A DNA stretch of 22,695 nucleotides from a virus, in the IMG/VR virus record IMGVR_UViG_3300032073_000278, positions 1 through 22,695 of that record, one strand, 5' to 3'. The notes under the pieces were generated by a model. It had not been told where the DNA came from. It saw only the letters and a list, made by a program, of their open reading frames with translations, and did no database searches. The translations under genes and the position numbers were made by a program. Position 1 is the first letter of the stretch. The number at the start of each line of letters is the position of its first letter. Below are positions 4,612 through 22,695 of the stretch, in pieces.

Positions 4612-5559
4612 ATGAAACAAAACTTTTGGACTTATAATAAACCTTTATCAATGCAAGGTTTAGGTGGTGGTGCTAACTCACTAAACCTAAAATCTAGTGG
4701 TGGAGGTGAAGTCATCTTACCTAATGCTGGAAACGTTAATGGTAATGCACAACAACAAGAAATAACAATATCAAACTTTATTTCTGCTGGACAAACACTA
4801 AAAATTCCTTCTGGTCTTTATATATGGTCAGATAACACAAGTAATCCAGCTTTAACTGTAGATATTGCATGCACAATTATAAACGAAGGTATCATTATGG
4901 GTCGTGGTGGTAATGGTGGTTCAACGGTTTCTGGGTCACAAGCTGGAAATGATGGAGGATCAGCAATTAAAATCAACAGTGGTGTCACTGGAGTTACCAT
5001 AACTAACAATTCAGGTGCTTACATCTTCGGTGGCGGTGGCGGTGGTAGTTCTGGTTTTATTTCTTTAGAAAGTTGTGGCGGTGGCGGTGGTGCTGGCGGT
5101 GGAAAAGGTGGTCGTGGTAGTGAAGAAACCACATTAACTGCTGGAGGTGCTATCGGTGCAAATGGTAGTAGCAGTCCTCGTACTTATGGAGGCGTTGGCG
5201 GTGAAAATGGTGGAAGTGGTGGCTCGTCTAATAATGACAACTCTACAACAGATGGTGGGGCTTCTGGCGGGGGAGGAGGTAGATCAACTAGCTTCGGTAG
5301 TGTGTCCGCACCAACTGTAAGTGGAGGTACGTTTGCAAGTAGAGGTGGTTATGGTGGAAGTCATAATAGCACTGGTGGAAATGCAACTGGAGGTTTATCA
5401 GCATCTTTTCGAGGTGCTGGCGGTGGTGGCGGTGGCTATGGTGCAAATGGTGGAGTAGGAAAGTATGGGAATACTGTAGGTTCTGGAGGTAAAGCAATAG
5501 ATGATAGTGGCGTAACATACACTCTTACTAACAATGGCACAATTTACGGAGGTACATAA
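4612..5559 (+). CDS. Glycine-rich tail adhesin-like protein
   Basis: This 315-residue protein has a beta-rich N-terminal half (about 45-125, including TIINEGIIMGRGGNGG) and then many glycine runs of 4-6 residues (about 138-290), broken by Ser/Asn/Thr segments and ending in YTLTNNGTIYGGT. This architecture resembles glycine-rich distal receptor-binding domains of phage fibres, such as gp38-type adhesins built from packed polyglycine helices. Position directly after the tail fibre supports a host-recognition role. No signal peptide or membrane segment is seen. Glycines are mostly GGT and GGC, locally raising GC above the surrounding genes. Receptor binding is inference; a structural tail-tip protein is the alternative. 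Confidence 0.6.
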   Translation: MKQNFWTYNKPLSMQGLGGGANSLNLKSSGGGEVILPNAGNVNGNAQQQEITISNFISAGQTLKIPSGLYIWSDNTSNPALTVDIACTIINEGIIMGRGGNGGSTVSGSQAGNDGGSAIKINSGVTGVTITNNSGAYIFGGGGGGSSGFISLESCGGGGGAGGGKGGRGSEETTLTAGGAIGANGSSSPRTYGGVGGENGGSGGSSNNDNSTTDGGASGGGGGRSTSFGSVSAPTVSGGTFASRGGYGGSHNSTGGNATGGLSASFRGAGGGGGGYGANGGVGKYGNTVGSGGKAIDDSGVTYTLTNNGTIYGGT

Positions 5560-5987
5560 TGTCAACTAAATATTATTATGTAAATAGTAAATATAATACA
5601 GAAAATGAAGCTCAAGATGCTGCAAAAGCACTTTCTGTTCGTATGCAAAACAATCCTACTGACTGGATATCTGTAAAAGAAATAACTGGTAATAATGAGA
5701 CAGGATGGGTAATCTATCCAACATTATTAACAGATGCAGAAATACTAAATCCAGATACAAGTAAAACTTATACTTGTTTTAGTCAATACAGTGGCGAAAA
5801 TGTAATTCCAGTTAGTGCGACAGAATTAACTATAAAAAGTAGTGAATACAGGAAAATTTACGGGCAATTTTGGAACGTAAACACTATTGAAAAATTTGAA
5901 GATGATGTCGATTTTGAAGGTGATGGCAATAACGTACCTGCAACCGTATTTATAACCCCAACCACTGATATGTCAGAATATATCTAG
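5559..5987 (+). CDS. Hypothetical protein after the tail adhesin
   Basis: A 142-residue acidic soluble protein whose ATG overlaps the stop of the Gly-rich gene (TAATG), so translation is probably coupled. I do not recognise the family. It begins MSTKYYYVNSKY, contains a Trp near residue 36 (NPTDWISVKEI), a GWVIYPTLLTDAEI segment near 67, and an acidic stretch (FEDDVDFEGDG) near 112, without Cys pairs or membrane segments. As the last gene of the tail block it may be a tail accessory or fibre chaperone, but that rests on position alone. Confidence 0.6.
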   Translation: MSTKYYYVNSKYNTENEAQDAAKALSVRMQNNPTDWISVKEITGNNETGWVIYPTLLTDAEILNPDTSKTYTCFSQYSGENVIPVSATELTIKSSEYRKIYGQFWNVNTIEKFEDDVDFEGDGNNVPATVFITPTTDMSEYI

Positions 5988-6035: not shown

Positions 6036-6206
6036 ATGGCTCGTAAAACGATTGAAGAATTAAAACAACAAATACAAATTCTAAAAAAAAATCAAGAAGA
6101 AGCTATACAGGTTGCTAACAATTGTCGTGACCAAATTATGCGTGTTGAAGCTGTTTTAGCAGATAGAGCAGAGGCCGAAACCGAAAAAAAGTCTTTTGCG
6201 AAATAA
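6036..6206 (+). CDS. Small coiled-coil protein (zero-frame product of a likely frameshift gene)
   Basis: A 56-residue ORF starting MARKTIEELKQQIQ and ending KKSFAK, followed by two in-frame stops (TAA TAG). The composition (Lys, Glu, Gln, spaced Leu/Ile) suggests a coiled coil. Its last codons run through A AAA AAG at 6185-6191, which lies in the correct phase for -1 slippage. A shift there joins it to a zinc-finger ORF ending at 6319. The zero-frame product alone may also be made. Function unknown; there is a 48-base gap to the gene upstream and no strong ribosome binding site. Confidence 0.6.
   Translation: MARKTIEELKQQIQILKKNQEEAIQVANNCRDQIMRVEAVLADRAEAETEKKSFAK
6185..6191 (+). promoter_or_regulatory. 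Putative -1 programmed ribosomal frameshift site
   Basis: The heptamer A AAA AAG sits in the X XXY YYZ phase of the 56-residue ORF. A Shine-Dalgarno-like AGAGG lies at 6170-6174, leaving a 10-base spacer, the same layout as the well-known E. coli dnaX shift site. The zero frame stops within 5 codons at tandem stops, while the -1 frame encodes an intact zinc finger. I see only a weak possible stem downstream (GCAG with CTGC). Confidence 0.5.
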
Positions 6207-6319
6207 TAGAAAAGCAGTGTAAATGCTGCGGTAAAGTGTTTGCTACAACAGAGCAAAGAAGAAAGTATTGTTCAAATGCTTGTAAAACAAGGTTTTATCG
6301 TAGAAAAAAAGCTACTTAG
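6191..6319 (+). CDS. Zinc-finger extension reached by -1 frameshift
   Basis: In the -1 frame relative to the preceding coiled-coil ORF there are 42 codons carrying CKCCGKVF, then RRKYCSNACKTRFYRRKK: a CxxC plus CxxxC zinc-binding pattern with a basic tail, like small nucleic-acid-binding zinc fingers. Between the previous stop in this frame and the first Cys pair there is no ATG, GTG or TTG, so independent initiation would need a rare codon such as ATA. Slippage at 6185-6191 would give a 94-residue coiled-coil plus zinc-finger protein. Alternatives are a single-base error in the A7 run at 6184-6190 or transcriptional slippage on it. Confidence 0.55.
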   Translation, partial: VFCEIIEKQCKCCGKVFATTEQRRKYCSNACKTRFYRRKKAT

Positions 6320-6441
6320 TTTCGGTAGTCATTTGCCTTGTCATTAAACTCATAGTGACGTATAAAGGTGACAGAGCTACAATTAGTAGTAACACAAGCA
6401 CACTTGTAAATGAAAGTGCTTTAAGTATCGCAAATTTAATC

Positions 6442-6672
6442 ATGTTTCAAAAGATCGCTAACGCTTTATCCATTTTATCATTCGTTCTTATAAGCACAAC
6501 TTTAGGAGCTTCGTATTTCGGTTATAAATACGTCACATCTGAGCAGTTTAAATCCAAACTTATGAAAGAGGTTATGAGTAATGTCTCTGGACTTTTACCA
6601 AATGTATTAGATAAAGGTTTACCAGAGATGACAGGGCCATCTTTACCTGCAACGTCTTTACCTAAATTCTAA
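6442..6672 (+). CDS. Small membrane protein, cyanophage-type hypothetical
   Basis: A 76-residue protein with one hydrophobic N-terminal helix (about residues 6-26, ILSFVLISTTLGASYFGYKYV), then a Lys-rich stretch and a Pro-rich C-terminus (LPEMTGPSLPATSLPKF). I recall similar short proteins in marine cyanophages, of unknown function. The start is uncertain: the frame extends to a GTG at 6355, adding 29 residues, but the ATG at 6442 puts the helix directly at the N-terminus. It heads a group of three same-strand genes for membrane or Pro-rich proteins and could take part in envelope modification or lysis; that is inference. Confidence 0.6.
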   Translation: MFQKIANALSILSFVLISTTLGASYFGYKYVTSEQFKSKLMKEVMSNVSGLLPNVLDKGLPEMTGPSLPATSLPKF

Positions 6673-7224: not shown

Positions 7225-7883
7225 TGCCCACGATTAAAGTTCCTGAGATAAAAATACCAAAAGTAAATATACCAGAAACACCTTATATTCCTGAGACTGT
7301 TTTGATAGGAGAGAACCCTGCTTGTGATTTAACTAATAGAGATATAGAACTATCAGAAAATCCAACTATAATTTTTCATGGCAGAAAGGCTTATGCTACT
7401 TGTCCAAATGGTCAGGCAATTAGTGGCACACAACCAATTAAAACTCAACCAGAACCTAAAACATTTAGACCTATTGTTTATGATGCACAGGACACTATAG
7501 AAACAGAAGGTACATATAATTTTCAGCAAAAAGCAAGTGGAGTAAATATTAATTTAGGACAAAAAGAAGCAGAAAAAGAAATTGAGCTAGTACCCTGTCC
7601 ACCAAAAAACGCACCCTATAGATCAGGGGATTGGCGTAATGAGCTTAGATTAGAAAGGCTGGTAAAATATGAGCGTGGGTTATTGGAGGGTTCTTGTGAC
7701 GCAATCTGGGAAGAAGTACCGTTTGTGGACCAATACATACCAACGGCTAGCGTTGTTGTCTCTACTGCTGTTATCGCTAGTGTGGCTGCGACTACACCTG
7801 TTATTCTCCAGCTTGTAAAACCCCTAGTAAAAAATGTAATTAAAAAGCTGACAAAGAAAAAAGAAAAACCTAATCAACCTTAA
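7224..7883 (+). CDS. Proline-rich protein with C-terminal membrane segment
   Basis: A 219-residue protein from the ATG in the TAATG overlap; a TTG two codons earlier is also possible. The N-terminus is a repeated Pro/Ile/Lys pattern (KVPEIKIPKVNIPETPYIPE), the middle has several Cys (NPACDL, YATCPNG, VPCPP, EGSCDA), and the C-terminus has a hydrophobic helix at about 174-203 (VVVSTAVIASVAATTPVILQL) followed by a Lys-rich tail (KKLTKKKEKPNQP). This suggests a tail-anchored membrane protein with an extended Pro-rich arm. I recall cyanophage hypotheticals with the same design. Its 3' end overlaps the convergent exported-protein gene by 14 bases. Confidence 0.6.
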   Translation: MPTIKVPEIKIPKVNIPETPYIPETVLIGENPACDLTNRDIELSENPTIIFHGRKAYATCPNGQAISGTQPIKTQPEPKTFRPIVYDAQDTIETEGTYNFQQKASGVNINLGQKEAEKEIELVPCPPKNAPYRSGDWRNELRLERLVKYERGLLEGSCDAIWEEVPFVDQYIPTASVVVSTAVIASVAATTPVILQLVKPLVKNVIKKLTKKKEKPNQP

Positions 7884-8643
7884 GCTTATGAGTATGTGGT
7901 AATACTTGATTTGGAACGCTAGTCAATACAACATTTTTACAGCTAACAGCATCTTCTCCTACATACTTAACACCGAGCTTAAGCTGCTGGCTACAGATAG
8001 AAAGCCGATTGAGATTAACCTCTAGCTTTTTTGCTTGTAAAAGAAACTCTTGATATTTTCTATAAGTCTGGGCTGCCTTCAAGCACTCATCATTGAATCG
8101 TTTTCCTAATGGTACTTGTAGACTTATAGTTGCTCCATATGAAAAGTTATGATTTATTTGATCTAATCTTTCTTGCTCTGCTACGTAAAGTATTTCACCT
8201 GGATTTATTAGCTGACCAGTTTCACTATCTTTTGCTTGGTTATATATATTTGTTCTTTGTATAGTACTTCTAGGACTGTTGTAATATTCTCCTTTTGTTA
8301 TGAACGGATTAAAGCTTAAAGTAGGTGTTTGGCATTGAATACCATTGCTATATCTATGAGTTGGGAAAGATCCGCTTATACTTTGAAAACCTTGATTTAC
8401 TATTGTCGATTGGGTACTCGACTGGGGATTAGATATAGTAGTTTCTGCGTAAACAGGACTACCAAATAAAAGTCCTATTGAAACAATGTGACCGAAGTTT
8501 GAGTAGTTTCTATTGTCTGTGAGCGATTTATAATTGAAACTGCGTCTAAACCAGGAGCCAGGAAGTTTTCGGTCAGACTGAACGCTTCTGCCTCGTTTAC
8601 GATCTCGAATTGAGGCTTTGTTGTTAGGTCTGGTGTTATCCAT
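7870..8643 (-). CDS. Exported protein of antisense cassette, start uncertain
   Basis: The longest frame gives 257 residues, but the first 50 overlap the preceding gene in another frame and look like out-of-frame sequence. At about residues 53-67 IVSIGLLFGSPVYAE looks like a signal peptide core with an AxA-type cleavage site; the mature part has four Cys and a possible coiled coil (AAQTYRKYQEFLLQAKKLEV). No ATG, GTG or TTG lies just before the signal sequence; an ATT near 8490 could serve, coupled to the previous stop at 8475. I recall similar Ser/Thr-rich exported proteins in cyanophages. Either a rare start, the long ATG form, or a sequence error must explain it. Function unknown. Confidence 0.55.
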   Translation of the reverse strand: MDNTRPNNKASIRDRKRGRSVQSDRKLPGSWFRRSFNYKSLTDNRNYSNFGHIVSIGLLFGSPVYAETTISNPQSSTQSTIVNQGFQSISGSFPTHRYSNGIQCQTPTLSFNPFITKGEYYNSPRSTIQRTNIYNQAKDSETGQLINPGEILYVAEQERLDQINHNFSYGATISLQVPLGKRFNDECLKAAQTYRKYQEFLLQAKKLEVNLNRLSICSQQLKLGVKYVGEDAVSCKNVVLTSVPNQVLPHTHKLKVD

Positions 8644-8906
8644 TCAAAATTAACTGCACCTGCATTTCCTGTATTCTGACTTGTTGTGTATGTTGCTTCA
8701 GGAGAAATAACAGTGCCATCTTTGATTTTGATGTTAGATCCTGTAACTGAGTACGCATAGCCTGAGTTATAGTTTTCAGTAATAATAACTTCATCTATTT
8801 TTGAAACACTCCTTGAGTTGCTTTGAATTTGGTTCGCACCAAATCTTGGCGTATTAGCAAAAGCATTAGGACTTAAAACAACAAGTAGACATACCCACCA
8901 TTTCAT
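8475..8906 (-). CDS. Exported protein, paralogue of the upstream gene
   Basis: A 143-residue protein with a clear signal peptide (MKWWVCLLVVLSPNAFA, cleavage before NTP) and a beta-rich mature part. Its ATG shares a base with the stop of the upstream gene (TGATG), so it is preferred to the TTG one codon earlier. YSVTGSNIKIKDGTV and FEIVNEAEAFSLTENFL match ISVAGTNVTPKANTV and FTVTDAGNAWSVSETYL of the upstream gene in order and spacing, so the two look like diverged tandem duplicates. It is secreted to the periplasm or beyond. Role unknown; a virion or envelope-modifying function is possible. Confidence 0.6.
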   Translation of the reverse strand: MKWWVCLLVVLSPNAFANTPRFGANQIQSNSRSVSKIDEVIITENYNSGYAYSVTGSNIKIKDGTVISPEATYTTSQNTGNAGAVNFEWITPDLTTKPQFEIVNEAEAFSLTENFLAPGLDAVSIINRSQTIETTQTSVTLFQ

Positions 8907-9427
8907 CAATCAAGGCCAAGAGTAATAGTTGATTGTAGTGTGGCTGTAGTACCAGCACCCATATCAGCTAGGCTTACTGTAAGACCTTGTCCAGAATCAA
9001 GTGTTATAGCTACAGAACCAGGATCGCCTCCAGATACGATTGTATATGACCCCAAAAGAGGAATGGCACTTATACCATCAGTAACTTGTGCTGAGGTTGT
9101 ACTTGTACTATCCGCTTGAAGGTACGTTTCACTCACTGACCATGCATTTCCTGCGTCTGTGACCGTAAATGAAGTATCGTAGTCAACAGTAGGAACTCCG
9201 TTAGTAATACCAGCATCTGCTAAATCAAGAGAACCTATCTGACCAGCTACAGTATTAGCTTTTGGTGTTACGTTTGTACCTGCAACACTTATCGAAGCAC
9301 CAATGCGTTCAGATGTAGCACTAGCACCTAGAGTAGATACGCTTGCTACAGATTGGATTGAGTGAGTGATGTCTGCAAAACTAGCTGTTGGAAATGCTAG
9401 TAAAAGCAAGGGTAATAGTTTTTTCAT
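8906..9427 (-). CDS. Exported Ser/Thr-rich protein
   Basis: This 173-residue protein has a textbook signal peptide (MKKLLPLLLLAFPTASFA, cleavage before DITHS) and a mature part of about 155 residues very rich in Ser, Thr, Ala and Gly, without Cys, suggesting a beta-structured secreted domain. It overlaps the upstream gene by ATGA and the downstream gene by TGATG, indicating a translationally coupled operon. I recall similar cyanophage hypotheticals but know no proven function. Exported proteins are unusual for a podovirus outside lysis, so an envelope-related job is plausible but unproven. Confidence 0.65.
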   Translation of the reverse strand: MKKLLPLLLLAFPTASFADITHSIQSVASVSTLGASATSERIGASISVAGTNVTPKANTVAGQIGSLDLADAGITNGVPTVDYDTSFTVTDAGNAWSVSETYLQADSTSTTSAQVTDGISAIPLLGSYTIVSGGDPGSVAITLDSGQGLTVSLADMGAGTTATLQSTITLGLD

Positions 9428-9846
9428 TTTTTAGGATCAACAATTTCCGCACCAATAATTTTAATTGGTGTCTCTATTCTAACTGTTTGATACGATCCTG
9501 ACTGTGACGCTAGTAACGCTTCTACTTCTTTCTTGTTTAGAGGCTTTTCGTCAGGTTTAAACGTACCATCTCCACGTTTCTTAGCACCTTCTAAACCAAA
9601 CGAAGCTAATGCACCTGTCAGCAAAGAAGCTGGAAACGTTATATCTTTTGGTTCGTTACTGTAACCAGGAAGTGTAATGTAGTTAAGGGATACTATGAAG
9701 CCACTCCAAGCGACAACACTGAGTCTCACGATTACAGATATAAAAGCTAGTTGCTCTTCCTTATCAGTAATGTTCTCCTTCAGTTTTTGAAGGGGGCCTT
9801 TCTTTTCTTTTTCGTCCATACACCTTTTTTCTGTCATAATAGGCAT
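9424..9846 (-). CDS. Small membrane protein, holin-like candidate
   Basis: A 140-residue first gene of the antisense operon. Its charged N-terminus (DEKEKKGPLQKLKENITDKEE) is followed by a hydrophobic segment at about 33-56 (LAFISVIVRLSVVAWSGFIV) and a weaker one at about 72-85 (FPASLLTGALASFG), then a charged soluble tail. Two short membrane segments and position before exported proteins would suit a holin, but sequence alone does not show it. Other in-frame starts (the ATGs at residues 4 and 10) are possible; the last has AAGG just upstream. It is divergent from the GTG-started gene only 18 bases away. Confidence 0.55.
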   Translation of the reverse strand: MPIMTEKRCMDEKEKKGPLQKLKENITDKEEQLAFISVIVRLSVVAWSGFIVSLNYITLPGYSNEPKDITFPASLLTGALASFGLEGAKKRGDGTFKPDEKPLNKKEVEALLASQSGSYQTVRIETPIKIIGAEIVDPKK

Positions 9847-15395: not shown

Positions 15396-15532
15396 TGACA
15401 AACGTAGTAAACCTTACGAAGTACAGACATGATCGTGACAAAGCGATTGATGAACGTATTGAGAACGCTGAACGCAGAATCAAAGAACTACATCTATTGA
15501 TTTACTCATGGAAGTTGTTGAAACATGAGTAA
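15395..15532 (+). CDS. Small basic helical protein before RNA polymerase
   Basis: A 45-residue ORF: MTNVVNLTKYRHDRDKAIDE, then RIENAERRIKELHLLIYSWK and LLKHE. Its ATG overlaps the zinc-ribbon stop (TGATG) and its stop overlaps the RNA polymerase start by 8 bases (ATGAGTAA), so it fits exactly into the coupled chain and closes the gap. Predicted helical/coiled coil; function unknown. Confidence 0.6.
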   Translation: MTNVVNLTKYRHDRDKAIDERIENAERRIKELHLLIYSWKLLKHE

Positions 15533-17921
15533 ACAACAACAGGTAGAAGAAGAAATGTGTGGTCGTGGCTATGATTCACGCCAAAGAAAAGTCCAGTTAA
15601 ATATATCCAAGGGTAAAGAGTCTGAAAATGATTATGCAAGAAGCATGATTGAAGCAGGTCTTGTACCTTTATCAAAAGCAATACAACAGTTTCTTGATCG
15701 TCATTGGAGACAAGGTAAACCAGGACCAAGGGCTGTTGCTGCTGTTAAGTTAAATCAATACCCTGATATAGATGTCGTTGCCTTTATTGCCTTCAAAGCA
15801 ATCATTGATTGTGCTTCACAAGTTAAGACTGCAACCCAGACTGCTATACAAATAGGACATCTTTTAGAAGATGAACTTAGGTTTAGTGTCTTTGAACAGG
15901 AAGATGAAAAACATTTTACTGCTGTAAAAAAACATATAACTGATACAACCCATCCAAGATACCGAAGGAACATGATGATGGGTCACATGAGAAATAAAGG
16001 TTTTGTTTTTAAATCTTGGAGTAAAGAAGATAAGTTGCGTGTAGGCATGAAGATGATTGACCTGATGAAACAATCAGTAGGCATGATAAAGCTTGCAACT
16101 ATCAGATCAGGTAAGACCATGAGAACTTATATTGAGTTTACTGAAGGTGCTATGGAGTGGATCAAGAAACAAAGAAAGAATAGATTTGCTGCCTATCCTA
16201 TTTATATGCCTTGTCTTGAGAAACCTAGAGATTGGATCAGCACTACAGAGGGTGGTTATTACAGCAAAAGACTACGACACGTTAAGGCAATCAAGTCTAA
16301 GGATCTCGATTACTTACAAGAAGTATCAGAAAGAAAACCAACAGCGTTTTTTGCAGCGTTAAATGCTCTGCAATCAACGAAGTGGGAAGTAAATAAAAAT
16401 GTTCTTGAAATTGCTCAGAGTTGTTGGGATAGAGGTATAGAAGTTGGATGCTTGATTGATGCTGAAACATTGCCACTACCTCCTAAACCACATGATATTG
16501 ATACTAATGATGATGCAAGACTGCAATATAGGAAGGCTGCAAGTTTAATCCATGACCAAAATGCCCATGATCGAGCTAAAAGATTTCAATGCTTATCTTT
16601 GCTTGATACTGGACTGTATTACAAAGATGAAACCTTTTACCACGTTTATCAGGCAGATTTTACCGGACGAATTTATCCGGCTGCTGCTACATTTAACCCA
16701 CAGGGAAATGATTTAGCTAGAGCCTTACATAGATTTGCTGAAGGCAAGCCAATAAAGAATGGAGAAGCTAAAAACTGGCTTGGTATTGCTGGTGCTAATC
16801 ACTGGGGTATGAGTCGTTGCAGTTATGAAGAACGTATCGAATGGTCTGATACAGAAGGAGCAGCACTGGCAAGACAGGTAGCTAATAATCCAGAAGCGAC
16901 TGTTAGTTTATGGAGTAAAGCAGAAGAACCATTCCAGTTTGTTTCTTGGTGTATTGAGTGGAGTGGCATGTTGGATGAAGGTTATGGGTATATATCAAAG
17001 CATCCTGTCCTGTTGGATGGCAGTAACAATGGCTATCAACACTTTGCAGCCATGACCTGTGATCAAGACCTTGCAGGTAAAGTAAATCTTATGCATTTTA
17101 ATGAGATCCAAGATCTTTATAACGAGGTAAGAACAAAACTGATTGCTGATCTTTCTGACAGTGAAGAGCCTTTGGCTAAAGATTGGTATAAATATCAAGA
17201 AGTTATATCAAGAAAGCTAGTAAAAAAACCGATAATGATGATTCCTTACAGTGGTACTTTGTATGGTATCTGTTATGCAATCAAAGATTATATACATCAG
17301 CAGAATATACATTTGGATTGGCCGACAGATGACTTTGCACATAACTATTTCTTGGCAAGGAAGATTGTAGAAACTGTTAAAAAAGTATGCCCAAAGTCTT
17401 CAATCATCATGCAATATTTAACAGACATTGCCAAATGTTTTGGTAATGAAAGTAAAGTAATGAAGTGGAATACACCTTCTAAGTTTTATGTTAACCAGAA
17501 TTATTACAAGCTTAGTAGTAAACAAATAAAGACCAAAATAGGCACTAGCACTATAAGATTGTCACTTACTGATGCTACGGATGAGGTAGATAAAAGAAAG
17601 ACTAGTATTAGTTTTGCCAGTAACTTTGTTCATAGTTTAGATGCTGCTAATGTACATTTAGCATTGCATAAAAGTAAGCAGAAAGGTCTTACAAACTTTA
17701 CAACTATCCACGATTGTTTTGGCTCTAATGCTGCTGACATCCAAGAATTTATATCCTGTGTGAAAGAATCTTTTGTAGAAATGTACACCGATAATGTACT
17801 GGATAATTTATATGACCAAGCTGTTCAGCAGTTAGATAAACCAAGAAGATTACCGACACCACCAGATCCAGGTGACTTTAATATCTGTGAAGTTCTTCTT
17901 GCTCCATATGTATTTAGCTGA
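15525..17921 (+). CDS. T7-type single-subunit DNA-directed RNA polymerase
   Basis: The 798-residue enzyme transcribes phage genes from its own promoters; T7 gp1 has 883 residues, so the N-terminal half is shorter. Seen: DFTGRIYPA at 378-386 (T7 D-x-x-GR motif), motif A LDGSNNGYQHF at 497-507 with metal ligand D498, motif B SRKLVKKPIMMIPYSGTLYG at 562-581 (R563, K567, Y575), SNFVHSLDAANV at 699-710, motif C TIHDCFG at 727-733 with D730. The region at 661-698, corresponding to the T7 promoter-specificity loop, is unlike T7, so promoters should differ. It ends in YVFS, close to the typical aromatic C-terminus. All catalytic residues are intact. Confidence 0.95.
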   Translation: MSKQQQVEEEMCGRGYDSRQRKVQLNISKGKESENDYARSMIEAGLVPLSKAIQQFLDRHWRQGKPGPRAVAAVKLNQYPDIDVVAFIAFKAIIDCASQVKTATQTAIQIGHLLEDELRFSVFEQEDEKHFTAVKKHITDTTHPRYRRNMMMGHMRNKGFVFKSWSKEDKLRVGMKMIDLMKQSVGMIKLATIRSGKTMRTYIEFTEGAMEWIKKQRKNRFAAYPIYMPCLEKPRDWISTTEGGYYSKRLRHVKAIKSKDLDYLQEVSERKPTAFFAALNALQSTKWEVNKNVLEIAQSCWDRGIEVGCLIDAETLPLPPKPHDIDTNDDARLQYRKAASLIHDQNAHDRAKRFQCLSLLDTGLYYKDETFYHVYQADFTGRIYPAAATFNPQGNDLARALHRFAEGKPIKNGEAKNWLGIAGANHWGMSRCSYEERIEWSDTEGAALARQVANNPEATVSLWSKAEEPFQFVSWCIEWSGMLDEGYGYISKHPVLLDGSNNGYQHFAAMTCDQDLAGKVNLMHFNEIQDLYNEVRTKLIADLSDSEEPLAKDWYKYQEVISRKLVKKPIMMIPYSGTLYGICYAIKDYIHQQNIHLDWPTDDFAHNYFLARKIVETVKKVCPKSSIIMQYLTDIAKCFGNESKVMKWNTPSKFYVNQNYYKLSSKQIKTKIGTSTIRLSLTDATDEVDKRKTSISFASNFVHSLDAANVHLALHKSKQKGLTNFTTIHDCFGSNAADIQEFISCVKESFVEMYTDNVLDNLYDQAVQQLDKPRRLPTPPDPGDFNICEVLLAPYVFS

Positions 17922-18635: not shown

Positions 18636-18987
18636 AAGTAAATTTGAAGCTACAATAGCTGCAAGTTTAAACGCAAATAAAATTCCCTATGACTATGAAA
18701 AAATTGATCTTGAATACTGCATCATCGGGTCTTACAAACCTGACTTCATCTTTAAAAACTTTATCGTTGAAGCCAAAGGTTACTTCTCTCCTGAGGACAG
18801 AAGAAAGATGCTTGCAGTTAAGGAGAAACATCCCAGTTTAGATATACGTTTCTGTTTTCAGAACGCAAAAACAAAACTAAGTCGTGGCAAAAAGAGAAGC
18901 CTTACCTATGCTCAATGGGCAGAACGTCATGGGTTTCTCTGGAGTCATGGCTCCATCCCAGAAGAATGGCATGAACGACAAGAGTAA
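18604..18987 (+). CDS. Endonuclease I, Holliday-junction resolvase (T7 gp3-like)
   Basis: This nuclease resolves branched DNA and degrades host DNA. Seen (from the TTG at 18604): FRSKFE with E15, YKPDF with D47, VEAKG with E56 and K58, in the spacing of T7 catalytic residues E20, D55, E65, K67; then HPSLDIRFCF and GFLWSHGSIPEEW like T7. The start is unclear: the frame opens to an ATG at 18520 inside the SSB gene, adding 28 basic residues, while TTG 18604 has AAGG 9 bases upstream and GTG 18625 would leave only a few residues before the active site. It overlaps the SSB gene and, by 17 bases, the primase-helicase gene. Confidence 0.85.
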   Translation: MRQSLQGVNFRSKFEATIAASLNANKIPYDYEKIDLEYCIIGSYKPDFIFKNFIVEAKGYFSPEDRRKMLAVKEKHPSLDIRFCFQNAKTKLSRGKKRSLTYAQWAERHGFLWSHGSIPEEWHERQE

Positions 18988-20578
18988 ATATGTAAGAAAA
19001 ACTAGCTGCTCTGAATGTGGCAGCAAAGATAACATGGCTATCTATGACGATGGACATGGTTATTGTTTCGGTTGTGGTCATACCTATCAACCACCAAAAG
19101 ATAAACCCAGAAAGTCTTTTATTAAAACAGTGAAGAAACCTTTATTAAAATTTGTATCTCCAAGACCTTTACCGAAACGTGGCTTAACACAAGAAACTTG
19201 TGAAATGTTTGGCTATGGAATATCAGAACACAATGGTCAACCTGTACAAGTAGCTACCTATGAAGACAAGTTAGGTAGACAAGCAGCACAGCACATTAGA
19301 TTTCAGAACAAAAAATTTATCTGGCTTGGTGATGTAGCAGAACTCCAGCTATGGGGTCAAAGGCTTTGGCGACAACAGAATACAGGTAATATGTTTGTCA
19401 CCATTACAGAAGGAGAGATAGATTGTATGTCTGTTTCTCAAGCACAAGGTAACAAGTTTCCTGTGGTAAGTTTGCCATCTGGTTCACAATCAGCTAACAA
19501 GTACATAGCTGCGAATTTAAAATGGTTATCTCAATTTGTACGAATAGTAATCTGTTTCGATAATGATTCAGCTGGTCAGCTTGCTTCAGAGAAGGCAATT
19601 AAAATCTTACCTGCTGGCAAGGCAGCTATATGTAGACTCCCTAGAAAAGACGCTAATGAAATGCTCCTCGCAGGAGAAGGGGATGAACTTAGAAAACTTT
19701 TATTCCAAGCAACACCTGTTAGACCAGATGGAATACTTAACGCCAGTAATCTCTGGGGAGAACTAACAAAGAAAGGATCTAACAGCGTCTGTCCTTTCCC
19801 CTACCCAATGTTGGATCAGTTTACAAAAGGCTTTCGTAAAAGTCAGATGATAACGATAGCAGCAGGTAGTGGTACAGGTAAGTCAACTATATGTAGAGAA
19901 CTGGCACATCACTTTCTTAAGAATAAACTGACGGTTGGTTACATTGCTCTTGAAGAGAGTGTACAAAGAACAATGCAGGGGATACTCGGTGTAGAGATGA
20001 ATAAACCCCTGCACCTTGAGGATAATGTAGAAGAAACAGAAGGGTTGAAACAATCCTTTGACAGGTTGTTTGGTACAGAAAAACTATTCTTATATGATCA
20101 CTTCGGATCTATGGACCCTGACAGGTTGATAGAACAGATCACTTACCTTGCAACAGCAGAAGGTGTAGATGTAGTGATATTGGATCATCTGACAATAGTT
20201 GTTTCTGGTATAGATAATGTAGATGAAAGAAGAGCTATTGATATTGCGTGTACAAAATTACGACAGGTCGTTGAATCTACTGGTATAGGTTTGATACTTG
20301 TCAGCCATTTAAGAAGACCACCTGGTCTTTCGCACGAACAAGGACAGACTGTAAGTACCTCTGACTTGAGAGGTAGCTCTGGAATTTTACAGCTATCAGA
20401 TCTTTGTATCAGTGCTGAAAGAAATCAGCAATCGGAAAGCTATGCAGAAAGGGCAGAACTACAGCTACGAGTACTGAAGAACAGGCATACAGGGATGACA
20501 GGACCGATAGATAAATTATTGTATGACCAAAGCACAGGAAGACTTGTAGTGCCTATGTCCACTTACTTTGGAAACTAA
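18971..20578 (+). CDS. Bifunctional DNA primase-helicase (T7 gp4-like)
   Basis: A 535-residue protein that makes primers and unwinds the fork. Zinc-binding domain: CSEC at 13-16 and CFGC at 32-35 with DDGHGYCF. TOPRIM primase core: TEGEID at 146-151 and FDNDSAG at 196-202. RecA/DnaB-type helicase: Walker A GSGTGKST at 299-306, Walker B VVILDHL at 401-407, LILVSHLRR at 441-449, LRGSSGILQLSD at 466-477 and LKNRHTG at 502-508. The ATG at 18971 puts the zinc domain at the N-terminus; longer frames run into the endonuclease gene. The stop overlaps the exonuclease start (TAATG). The gp5 polymerase gene expected between these two is absent. Confidence 0.95.
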   Translation: MNDKSKYVRKTSCSECGSKDNMAIYDDGHGYCFGCGHTYQPPKDKPRKSFIKTVKKPLLKFVSPRPLPKRGLTQETCEMFGYGISEHNGQPVQVATYEDKLGRQAAQHIRFQNKKFIWLGDVAELQLWGQRLWRQQNTGNMFVTITEGEIDCMSVSQAQGNKFPVVSLPSGSQSANKYIAANLKWLSQFVRIVICFDNDSAGQLASEKAIKILPAGKAAICRLPRKDANEMLLAGEGDELRKLLFQATPVRPDGILNASNLWGELTKKGSNSVCPFPYPMLDQFTKGFRKSQMITIAAGSGTGKSTICRELAHHFLKNKLTVGYIALEESVQRTMQGILGVEMNKPLHLEDNVEETEGLKQSFDRLFGTEKLFLYDHFGSMDPDRLIEQITYLATAEGVDVVILDHLTIVVSGIDNVDERRAIDIACTKLRQVVESTGIGLILVSHLRRPPGLSHEQGQTVSTSDLRGSSGILQLSDLCISAERNQQSESYAERAELQLRVLKNRHTGMTGPIDKLLYDQSTGRLVVPMSTYFGN

Positions 20579-21309
20579 TGACTTTACTAATTGACGCTGA
20601 TTGGCTTTTGTATTCTTCATGTTGTGCCTGTGAACAGGACATAAAATGGGATGACAATCTACACACTCTTCATGCTGATGAAAGAGATGTACATGAAATG
20701 ATTGATGGCAGAGTCTCTTACTATCAGACTATTGCTGAAGGCGATAAGGATGTTGTTATGTGCTTTACTGAGTACCCGACATTCAGACATACGATATATC
20801 CAGAGTACAAAGCTAATAGAAAGAACAAAAGAAAACCGTTAGCCTTTAAAAAAATAGTAGAACAGGTAAGAGAAAAGTATCAATCAAAAAGCTTTGATGG
20901 GTTAGAAGGAGATGATGTTATGGCTTTGCTTGCAACATCTAAACAATACGACAACCCAATAATAGTTTCAGTCGATAAGGACATGAGGTCTGTACCTTGC
21001 ACACTGCTTGCAGGTGATGACCTAGAACTTATAACCAAACGTAAGGCTGATCGACATTGGATGAAGCAAGCCCTTACAGGAGACAGTACAGATAACTATT
21101 TTGGTATAGATAAAGTAGGACCAGTAACAGCAGAGAAGATACTGGGAGAATCTAAAACACTAGAACAGATGTGGGAGAAGGTAGTAGCTGCGTATGAGAA
21201 AAAGAAATATGACTTTGCTGATGCTGTATTAAATGCACAGCTTGCAAGAATACTGAGAGATGGAGACTTTGATTACAAGACAGGAGAAGTATCTCTTTGG
21301 ACTCCATAA
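20578..21309 (+). CDS. 5'-3' exonuclease (T7 gp6-like, FEN family)
   Basis: A 243-residue nuclease for primer removal, host DNA degradation and recombination. Family motifs: LLIDADW with D6, YKANRK at 77-82, LEGDD at 109-113, SVDKDM at 131-136, LTGDSTDN at 166-173, and the helix-3-turn-helix KVGPVTAEKIL at 179-189. Length is somewhat below T7 gp6 (about 300). Its ATG shares a base with the primase-helicase stop, so the two are co-translated. It ends the replication operon, 2 bases before a strong terminator. Confidence 0.9.
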   Translation: MTLLIDADWLLYSSCCACEQDIKWDDNLHTLHADERDVHEMIDGRVSYYQTIAEGDKDVVMCFTEYPTFRHTIYPEYKANRKNKRKPLAFKKIVEQVREKYQSKSFDGLEGDDVMALLATSKQYDNPIIVSVDKDMRSVPCTLLAGDDLELITKRKADRHWMKQALTGDSTDNYFGIDKVGPVTAEKILGESKTLEQMWEKVVAAYEKKKYDFADAVLNAQLARILRDGDFDYKTGEVSLWTP

Positions 21310-21311
21310 AG

Positions 21312-21352
21312 AAAACACTGGCAACCTACGGGTATTTAGTCACCAGTGTTTT
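21312..21352 (+). terminator. Intrinsic terminator after the replication genes
   Basis: AAAACACTGG (21312-21321) pairs perfectly with CCAGTGTTTT (21343-21352), loop of 21 bases, with the T-run continuing (TTTTTGC). It stands 2 bases after the exonuclease stop. Confidence 0.7.
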
Positions 21353-21368
21353 TGCTTAGTCAAAAAAA

Positions 21369-21398
21369 ACCAGTAACTAATGGCGGTCAGCTACTGGT
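21369..21398 (+). terminator. Second hairpin in the replication/structure gap
   Basis: ACCAGTAACT (21369-21378) pairs with AGCTACTGGT (21389-21398) except one A/C mismatch, loop of 10 bases, followed by ATTTCC. An A8 run precedes it, so it could also terminate minus-strand transcription, though no minus-strand gene is near. Confidence 0.45.
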
Positions 21399-21442
21399 AT
21401 TTCCGTGTTGTAATAGAAAGACTCTCCTATAACATCATCACC

Positions 21443-21471
21443 TTATCACATAAATTTAAACCTGCTATACT
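21443..21471 (+). promoter_or_regulatory. Sigma70-like extended -10 promoter before the structural genes
   Basis: TTATCA (21443-21448), a 17-base spacer ending TGC, then TATACT (21466-21471). TGnTATACT is an extended -10. It lies 45 bases before the ATG at 21516, downstream of two hairpins. GAACTACAATA follows at 21486-21496 and also occurs before the early genes. Confidence 0.45.
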
Positions 21472-21515
21472 TTATTATCTAATTTGAACTACAATACTTA
21501 TAAATCTTACTAATC

Positions 21516-21719
21516 ATGTCATCTGAAAAGCTTCCTGTTATTACAGATGAACTGATTCTTGCTTTAAATCAAATCTTTCCTAATCGTCATCCTGATTTGT
21601 CATTAACTGATAGAGAGGTATGGTATAGGGCAGGGCAAAGGTTTGTTGTTGATTATCTTATTGAACAACAAGCCAGGCAAAAAGATACCATGCTCACCGA
21701 ATCAGTCTTGGAGAATTAG
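21516..21719 (+). CDS. Hypothetical protein, first gene of the structural operon
   Basis: A 67-residue protein: MSSEKLPVITDELILALNQI, then FPNRHPDLSLTDREVWYRAG and QRFVVDYLIEQQARQ. The pattern (LI.AL...FPN..PD....REVW..AG...VVD.L) is one I recall from cyanopodovirus genes just upstream of the portal gene, so it probably belongs to the head block. No catalytic or membrane element. Possibly a virion-assembly accessory; unproven. Confidence 0.7.
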   Translation: MSSEKLPVITDELILALNQIFPNRHPDLSLTDREVWYRAGQRFVVDYLIEQQARQKDTMLTESVLEN

Positions 21720-21721
21720 CT

Positions 21722-21946
21722 ATGTGCATTGGCAGACCTTCACCACCACCTTTACCAGAACCTAGACCAACAGCACCAAGGCCAGAGAGAACTGCTGAAC
21801 GTGTAGTCGTTGGACAACAAAGGGCTGAAGGACAAAGAAGAAGAAGAACACCAACTCAAAGAAGCAGAAGAAGATTAGGTACATCTTCATTAAGAATCCC
21901 TTTATTAGACCAAGGGCAAATGGGAACAGGTAATCTAAGGTACTAA
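21722..21946 (+). CDS. Pro/Arg-rich small protein with MCIG N-terminus
   Basis: A 74-residue low-complexity protein: MCIGRPSPPPLPEPRPTAPR, then Arg-rich repeats (GQRRRRTPTQRSRRRLG) and a hydrophobic end (SSLRIPLLDQGQMGTGNLRY). It is strongly basic. I recall similar short MC(I)GG..PPPP proteins before marine podovirus portals. After Met removal the N-terminus would be Cys; no signal peptide precedes it, so lipoprotein processing is not indicated. It starts 2 bases after the preceding stop. Confidence 0.6.
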   Translation: MCIGRPSPPPLPEPRPTAPRPERTAERVVVGQQRAEGQRRRRTPTQRSRRRLGTSSLRIPLLDQGQMGTGNLRY

Positions 21947-21948
21947 TT

Positions 21949-22275
21949 ATGTGTATAGGAGGAAGAAGCCAAGCTGTGCAACAAACACCAACTTTTCGTG
22001 ATGCACCACCTGTAGTAACAGGGTCACAAACTGGTGTTGATAATCCTAAAGATACAAAAAAAGCAACAGAACAATTAAAAATTAAAAGACAAAAAAGAGA
22101 AGGAACTTATGTAGATCCAAATCTTGAAACAGTAGAAAATTTATTAAATACAAGTGGTGGAATGTCACAATCTGATCGAGCAAGGAGAACAGCAAATCAA
22201 GATAGAGCAAAACGTAACTTTAATAAAAGAAAATACTCTAGAGGTATTACAGGTCAAAAGACTAGATCAGCTTAA
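21949..22275 (+). CDS. Basic hypothetical protein with MCIGG N-terminus
   Basis: A 108-residue basic protein beginning MCIGGRSQAVQQTPTFRDAP, with KKATEQLKIKRQKREGTYVD in the middle and an Arg/Lys-rich C-terminus (RARRTANQDRAKRNFNKRKY). The first four residues (MCIG) repeat those of the preceding gene, and the start GTG/ATG context is identical (ATTATGTG). It precedes the portal gene by 2 bases. A head- or connector-associated role is plausible; not shown. Confidence 0.6.
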   Translation: MCIGGRSQAVQQTPTFRDAPPVVTGSQTGVDNPKDTKKATEQLKIKRQKREGTYVDPNLETVENLLNTSGGMSQSDRARRTANQDRAKRNFNKRKYSRGITGQKTRSA

Positions 22276-22277
22276 CT

Positions 22278-22695
22278 ATGGAATACTCAACACAAGGACA
22301 AACAGCAGCAGGTAGATATGCACAACTACAAAGTGCAAGATCTACCTTTGATAGAGAAGCAAAAGAATCATCAAAACTAACCATACCTAGTTTGATACCT
22401 GAGAGTACAACTGGTACAAGAGCTAAGATAAAAACTCCATTTCAAGCTGTAGGTGCTAGAGGTGTTAACAGTCTTGCATCTAAATTATTATTTGCTTTAC
22501 TTCCTCCTTCAACTGCTTTTTTTAAACTAAGTATTGATAGTCTTGAACTGTTGAAACAAGGACAGGAAGGATTAGAAACAGAGATAGATAAAGGATTACG
22601 AACAATTGAAACAGCTTTGATGAATGAGATAGAGATCTCTAACGACAGAGTTGCAATGTTTGAAGCATTGAAGCATCTGATTGTTGGAGGGAATG
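22278..22695 (+). CDS. Portal (head-tail connector) protein, 5' part
   Basis: The first 139 residues of a T7 gp8-like portal, running off the window (T7 gp8 has 536). TIPSLIPE, TPFQAVGARGVNSLASKLLF and EISNDRVAMFEALKHLIVGGN-type segments match T7 gp8 (TPWQAVGARGLNNLASKL, RVTLFEALKQLVVAGN) residue by residue. The dodecameric portal is the DNA entry channel, the docking site for terminase and the base of the tail. ATG at 22278, 2 bases after the previous stop. Confidence 0.93.
   Translation, partial: MEYSTQGQTAAGRYAQLQSARSTFDREAKESSKLTIPSLIPESTTGTRAKIKTPFQAVGARGVNSLASKLLFALLPPSTAFFKLSIDSLELLKQGQEGLETEIDKGLRTIETALMNEIEISNDRVAMFEALKHLIVGGN

Follow-up and report, generated by a model that had tools for sequence, protein, structure and literature searches.

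How can a short phage gene deliver a second protein domain when the coding sequence for that domain lies in a different reading frame from the rest and lacks a start codon? The question is raised by positions 6036-6319, on the plus strand, of a 22,695-nucleotide stretch of viral DNA (IMG/VR record IMGVR_UViG_3300032073_000278), which is referred to here as the window. ORF calling of this gene reports a 56-residue hypothetical protein alone and misses altogether a zinc-finger-like domain encoded in the -1 frame. The reading that we favour, with a probability of roughly 0.85, is that this gene of a marine T7-like phage would yield two proteins by programmed -1 ribosomal frameshifting.

Layout of the gene and the candidate frameshift signal

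The 0-frame ORF (6036-6206, plus strand, as are all elements of the gene) begins with ATG and encodes 56 residues of a helical, probably coiled-coil protein (MARKTIEELKQQ...EKKSFAK*). Its codons 50-52, GAA AAA AAG, contain the slippery heptamer A AAA AAG (6185-6191) in the X_XXY_YYZ phase, and an AGAGG motif (6170-6174), a putative stimulator resembling a Shine-Dalgarno (SD) sequence, is located 10 nt ahead of the slip site. The 0 frame is closed by tandem stop codons, TAA (6204-6206) and TAG (6207-6209). In the -1 frame, 42 codons and a TAG (6191-6319) specify a zinc-finger-like domain with the spacing C-x2-C-x13-C-x3-C and a basic tail; this frame, which encodes VFCEIIEKQCKCCGKVFATTEQRRKYCSNACKTRFYRRKKAT, is open from past a TAG at 6164-6166 up to the TAG at 6317-6319 and contains no ATG, GTG or TTG ahead of the cysteines.

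A first-pass annotation of the stretch had proposed this arrangement, and when its coordinates were reread from the sequence all of them proved exact. The heptamer is in phase as codons 50-52, AGAGG lies 10 bases upstream at 6170-6174, the tandem zero-frame stops are TAA TAG, and the finger is without ATG, GTG or TTG in the gene itself and in 45 of 45 ungapped homologues.

Taken alone, in a single sequence, the frameshift signal is unusual to a modest degree. The window contains 14 copies of AAAAAAG, with 12.4 expected, and one occurrence of GAGG separated by 8-12 nt from AAAAAAG, with 0.12 expected. Among the plus-strand ORFs examined, 6185-6191 is the sole in-phase strong heptamer that opens a -1 frame of at least 25 codons past a nearby 0-frame stop. 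It is because the signal is conserved in homologues that it stands far beyond chance.

Homologues share the split gene

A scan of IMG/VR with the 94-residue fusion recovered 77 loci, to which a second scan, based on the alignment, contributed a few. From these, 51 distinct marine viral homologues were complete enough for comparison, and 45 ungapped homologues were used for a tree and for counts of changes by codon position. It is important to point out that many homologues are close kin, so that counts overstate the number of independent events and rank the evidence rather than provide exact probabilities.

The homologues come from dozens of contigs and many metagenomes, and the split is identical in all 51: a helical protein in the 0 frame ends soon after the heptamer, and the finger is readable in the -1 frame only. 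The 0-frame C-terminus reads ...EKKSxAK* or a close variant, or ...KKQEGVVTIKA* and similar in the group L063-L068; two homologues, L152 and L133, have the same layout at greater divergence. The first-pass annotation had suggested conservation of both frames and of the heptamer as a check, and these are indeed conserved in the 51 homologues, together with the SD-like element and the stops. It had also named two observations that would speak against frameshifting. An extra A joining the frames is found in no homologue, and a separate ATG for the finger is seen only in contigs in which no helical part was found (L147-L151, L153 and L154).

Two loci depart from the common pattern. In L002 (1771-1998) 53 bases ahead of the heptamer are deleted, which joins helix and finger in one continuous frame and bypasses the frameshift; this in-frame fusion may be genuine or the product of a chimeric assembly. 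In L140 (973-1280) the same slip site and finger follow a very divergent N-terminal helix, and GAGG is absent at 10 nt; a comparison of the L140 N-terminus with the family gave no BLASTP match and an hhalign probability of 20%.

Selection on the signal and on both reading frames

The heptamer is AAAAAAG in 50 of the 51 homologues and AAAAAAA in the remaining one, always in phase. On the 45-sequence tree it requires no parsimony change, compared with 5-15 changes for other conserved lysine codons of the finger. The codon preceding the slip is GAA, GCA, GTA or ACA, such that the residue varies (Glu, Ala, Val or Thr) while the final A is constant, and AAAAAAG is present in all 47 distinct matches to a DNA pattern that was built downstream of the slip site and did not require the A run. 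The run itself is A6-A8 in length among the 51, six of which have only A6; it reaches A8 in L064 and L133 and A9 in L152. GAGG is found at exactly 10 nt upstream in 49 of 51 homologues (it is absent in L061 and L064). Glu codon 46 is GAG in 50 of 51, as against 23% GAG across all Glu codons of the same reading frame, and its neighbours are variable. Downstream, codons 57-58 of the -1 frame are ATA ATA or GTA ATA, with Ile58 encoded by ATA in 45 of 45 homologues; it is this codon bias that preserves the 0-frame stops.

On the 45-homologue tree, the helical part has accumulated 136, 92 and 280 changes at first, second and third codon positions, and the finger region, counted in the -1 frame, 67, 60 and 231. 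A permutation test on a stretch of the finger with counts of 65, 60 and 231 gave no equally extreme outcome in 20,000 permutations. The third-position excess in each frame therefore indicates purifying selection on both reading frames. The -1 frame is free of stops in all 45 homologues, and the four cysteines of the finger are invariant across 31 alignment rows.

A downstream stem-loop or pseudoknot is unsupported. Single-strand folds gave z values of -0.28 and -0.91, RNAalifold returned a weak consensus fold only on the alignment, and an Rfam search downstream of the slip site found nothing. The best reading is therefore that the upstream SD-like stimulator acts alone, and the element looks like a minimal -1 signal comprising a heptamer and an upstream SD, with no evident 3′ structure.

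Proposed ribosomal frameshifting and its rivals

We propose that, while ribosomes decode A AAA AAG, the GAGG located 10 nt upstream would pair with the anti-Shine-Dalgarno sequence of 16S rRNA and detain them. In a fraction of these ribosomes lysyl-tRNA would slip back by one base and pair anew, so that translation would proceed in the -1 frame to make the 94-residue protein, and the remaining ribosomes would end at the tandem TAA TAG to make the 56-residue protein. The details of the signal are consistent with the literature: in E. coli, A_AAA_AAG is reported to shift far more readily than A_AAA_AAA or A_AAA_AAC, and SD sequences that promote -1 shifts are reported at a distance of 9-14 nt (PMC5009743), while A_AA.A_AA.G ranks among the most efficient motifs when stimulators are present (PMC4066793). 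The 10-nt spacing of GAGG lies inside this range, and 50 of 51 homologues keep the A_AAA_AAG form. The sequences themselves support the two reading frames, the slip site with its stimulator, the stops, and the selection acting on each frame. The two-protein reading of the first-pass annotation is likewise supported, by the conserved frames, the heptamer, the SD-like element with its spacing and the stops, with the pattern of evolution pointing to the two products. That the ribosome slips, rather than the RNA polymerase, is something we infer, as is the efficiency of the shift.

The main rival is slippage of the transcript, whereby an RNA polymerase would insert an additional A in the A6-A7 run and the altered mRNA would be translated normally into the same 94-residue fusion. 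The phage encodes its own T7-like RNA polymerase (15525-17921), and T7 RNAP is reported to slip on A runs as short as three and to favour insertion on poly(A) (PMC6260861); the longer runs mentioned above, A9 and A8, are also in keeping with such slippage. However, polymerase slippage leaves unexplained the GAGG at its exact spacing, the G that ends the run and the six homologues with only A6. The cassette is, moreover, also found in siphovirus-like contigs related to MED4-184 that are without a match to the T7-like RNAP family, as are the MED4-184 and MED4-117 records themselves, and E. coli RNAP is reported to require a run of 7 Ts or more, with a still longer one in the case of As (PMC6260861). 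We consider transcript slippage improbable, with about one chance in ten left to it. Internal initiation, in which helix and finger would be two independent genes and the GAGG would be the ribosome-binding site of the second, draws on the fact that in seven contigs such a finger does begin with an ATG and that GAGG could bind ribosomes. Yet 0 of 45 homologues have an ATG, GTG or TTG between the last upstream -1-frame stop and the cysteines, the -1 frame is closed immediately ahead of the slip site in 10 of 45, and the conserved ATA codons are too distant from the GAGG for a normal start. Initiation of the finger at standard start codons is excluded, since none is present in the joined genes; the fingers with their own ATG occur in helix-less contigs and therefore offer no alternative start for the joined genes.

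Were the split due to an error of sequencing or assembly, or to decay of the gene, loss of one base would have broken a true single-frame fusion; homopolymer runs are error-prone, and one extra base would restore the frame. Against this stand the same split across dozens of contigs, purifying selection on both frames and the maintenance of the stops, and the 51 homologues rule out both a sequencing error and a pseudogene. Because the split, heptamer, GAGG and stops are conserved, independent initiation is very unlikely, and error or decay so unlikely that its probability is close to nil. Programmed ribosomal frameshifting is the reading adopted in what follows.

Helix and finger as separable modules

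The small finger is predicted, from the finger alignment, to form a small beta hairpin and helices (mean pLDDT 83). Searches for its identity with Pfam, PHROG, NCBIfam, PDB sequences and Foldseek gave weak or sub-threshold matches only (DUF2116, HNH-associated fingers, YacG and C2H2). The DUF2116 profile matched at 13.7 bits, below its cut-off of 26.8 (E 0.065), and YacG at a Foldseek TM of about 0.47 and E 3.2, which is not significant. For the N-terminal part, the first-pass annotation had spoken of a coiled coil. A long helix is predicted, the single-sequence model of the natural L002 fusion showing the helical part as one long helix (pLDDT 75), and the coiled coil itself remains a conjecture drawn from it.

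Residues 1-52 of the helical protein match positions 1-52 of the 60 in the phrog_20003 profile (E 1e-11). A tblastn search of INPHARED with the fusion, or with the first helical query, returned no close relative, probably due to low-complexity masking; less repetitive helical queries identified complete stand-alone homologues of about 47-59 residues in the cultured Prochlorococcus phages P-RSP2, P-GSP1, P-SSP2, P-SSP3, MED4-184/P-HS2 and MED4-117. These helix-only phages lack the finger, and close to the end of their gene there is no heptamer in phase; they hence serve as negative controls. In P-RSP2 and MED4-184 the helical gene sits after tail-region genes and before genes of the phrog_568/570 type. 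Conversely, in the seven contigs L147-L151, L153 and L154 the finger is an ORF by itself that starts with ATG. These contigs are fragments, and a helical part was found in none of them; in several, the finger precedes the same downstream gene as in the joined loci.

Since stand-alone helical homologues exist, the 56-residue product is plausibly functional by itself, and since the modules are separate elsewhere, the frameshift would join two modules. Overall, cyanophages display the helix alone, the finger alone, the two joined by frameshifting, the two fused in frame (L002) and the cassette on a divergent helix (L140). Slip site and finger may together constitute a transferable cassette that lends a second form to a phage protein able to stand alone, with frameshifting determining what share of the subunits in an oligomer, encoded beside swapped tail-fibre genes, would bind nucleic acid; we advance this idea tentatively, at somewhat under even odds. 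As to function, our preferred reading, put forward at low confidence, is a late accessory oligomer: the short form would be the main, coiled-coil protein, made together with the products of the tail-fibre and late genes, and frameshifting would equip a fixed minority of the subunits in mixed oligomers with a zinc finger that binds nucleic acid.

Genomic context and host

The upstream neighbour (5559-5987, plus strand) is the end of a variable tail-fibre cassette, and its slot holds a Phage_tail_APC (PF16778) gene in many homologues; the downstream neighbour (6355-6672, plus strand) encodes a small protein (phrog_568) and belongs to a conserved cassette. The upstream genes vary among homologues (tail fibres, collagen-like adhesins, Phage_tail_APC, 2OG-Fe(II) oxygenase) and those downstream of the frameshift gene are largely constant, which therefore places the gene at the border of an exchanged tail-fibre cassette. 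In L042 and L027, both of which were tested, the upstream gene resembles a 2OG-Fe(II) oxygenase (phrog_61) that replaces the tail-fibre-assembly gene, and L029, L032, L034, L039, L045 and L058 have upstream sequences similar to this oxygenase-like gene.

The RNA polymerase of the window (15525-17921) shares 47% identity with the enzyme of Prochlorococcus phage P-SCSP2, a phage that was isolated on strain MED4 and belongs to a clade without DNA polymerase (PMC9860041). The phage looks like a relative of this DNA-polymerase-lacking podovirus, and the host, judged from the phage relatives, is probably Prochlorococcus. A scan of genome contigs found one distant finger only, in a Lachnospiraceae contig, and therefore linked no host. 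Searches with the T4-portal and T7-connector families had no match anywhere and are hence uninformative.

Several further features of the window were observed. The regions 15525-17921 and 18884-22695 contain a T7-like RNAP, a primase/helicase and an exonuclease, and no DNA polymerase ORF is evident in the window, which is not a complete genome. A minus-strand gene block (7870-9846) lies amid a plus-strand region, and P-SCSP2 and P-RSP2 have one in a similar place. The adjacent ORFs 21722-21946 and 21949-22275 start alike, with MCIGRPSPP and MCIGGRSQA respectively, and a short leader may have been duplicated here.

Comparison with known frameshift systems

The class of mechanism is already known from dnaX, IS elements and lambda G-GT. 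Three features of bacterial-type -1 frameshifting are present in this gene: the heptamer, a conserved -1 ORF that overlaps the end of the 0 frame and is without a start, and an SD-like element 9-14 nt upstream. A fourth, the downstream stem-loop or pseudoknot that is frequent at such sites but dispensable, is unsupported here. No earlier description of the gene was found in the open-licence full-text literature, and it apparently represents a genuine, undescribed -1 frameshift gene of marine cyanophages.

The first-pass annotation had likened the signal to that of E. coli dnaX (tau/gamma). The likeness holds for the in-phase A AAA AAG and the upstream SD-like stimulator (PMC5009743), but does not extend to the products or to the 3′ side: the dnaX shift leads to an early -1 stop and a shorter, truncated product, whereas here the -1 product is the longer one, and a downstream stem-loop contributes in dnaX, whereas none is supported here; the proteins are also unrelated. 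Elements of the IS3/IS1 family (OrfA/OrfAB) likewise use sites of the A_AAA_AAG type and add a C-terminal domain by the shift, and an SD-like stimulator has been estimated in 56% of IS elements (PMC5009743). The present gene, by contrast, is short, phage-borne and located beside tail genes, and no transposase domain was found in it; 3′ structures are a common additional feature of IS elements. Lambda gpG/gpGT and other frameshifts of tail-assembly chaperones resemble it in their proximity to tail genes and in a -1 shift that yields a C-terminally extended product with a common N-terminus; in contrast, the present gene follows tail-fibre genes, its extension is a zinc finger, and Pfam and PHROG reveal no homology between the 56-residue helical protein and a tail-assembly chaperone. 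For the finger, treble-clef-like fingers of the YacG/DUF2116 type share the C-x2-C ... C-x3-C spacing and a basic helix, a lead only, as the matches are non-significant. The closest counterparts of the helical N-terminus are its homologues among the phrog_20003-like Prochlorococcus phage proteins, which differ in being single ORFs without finger or heptamer. Next to these systems, the gene adds a well-conserved and apparently undescribed case of recoding, in phages of picocyanobacteria that abound in the sea, and together with its stand-alone modules it provides a natural series for studying domain fusion by frameshifting.
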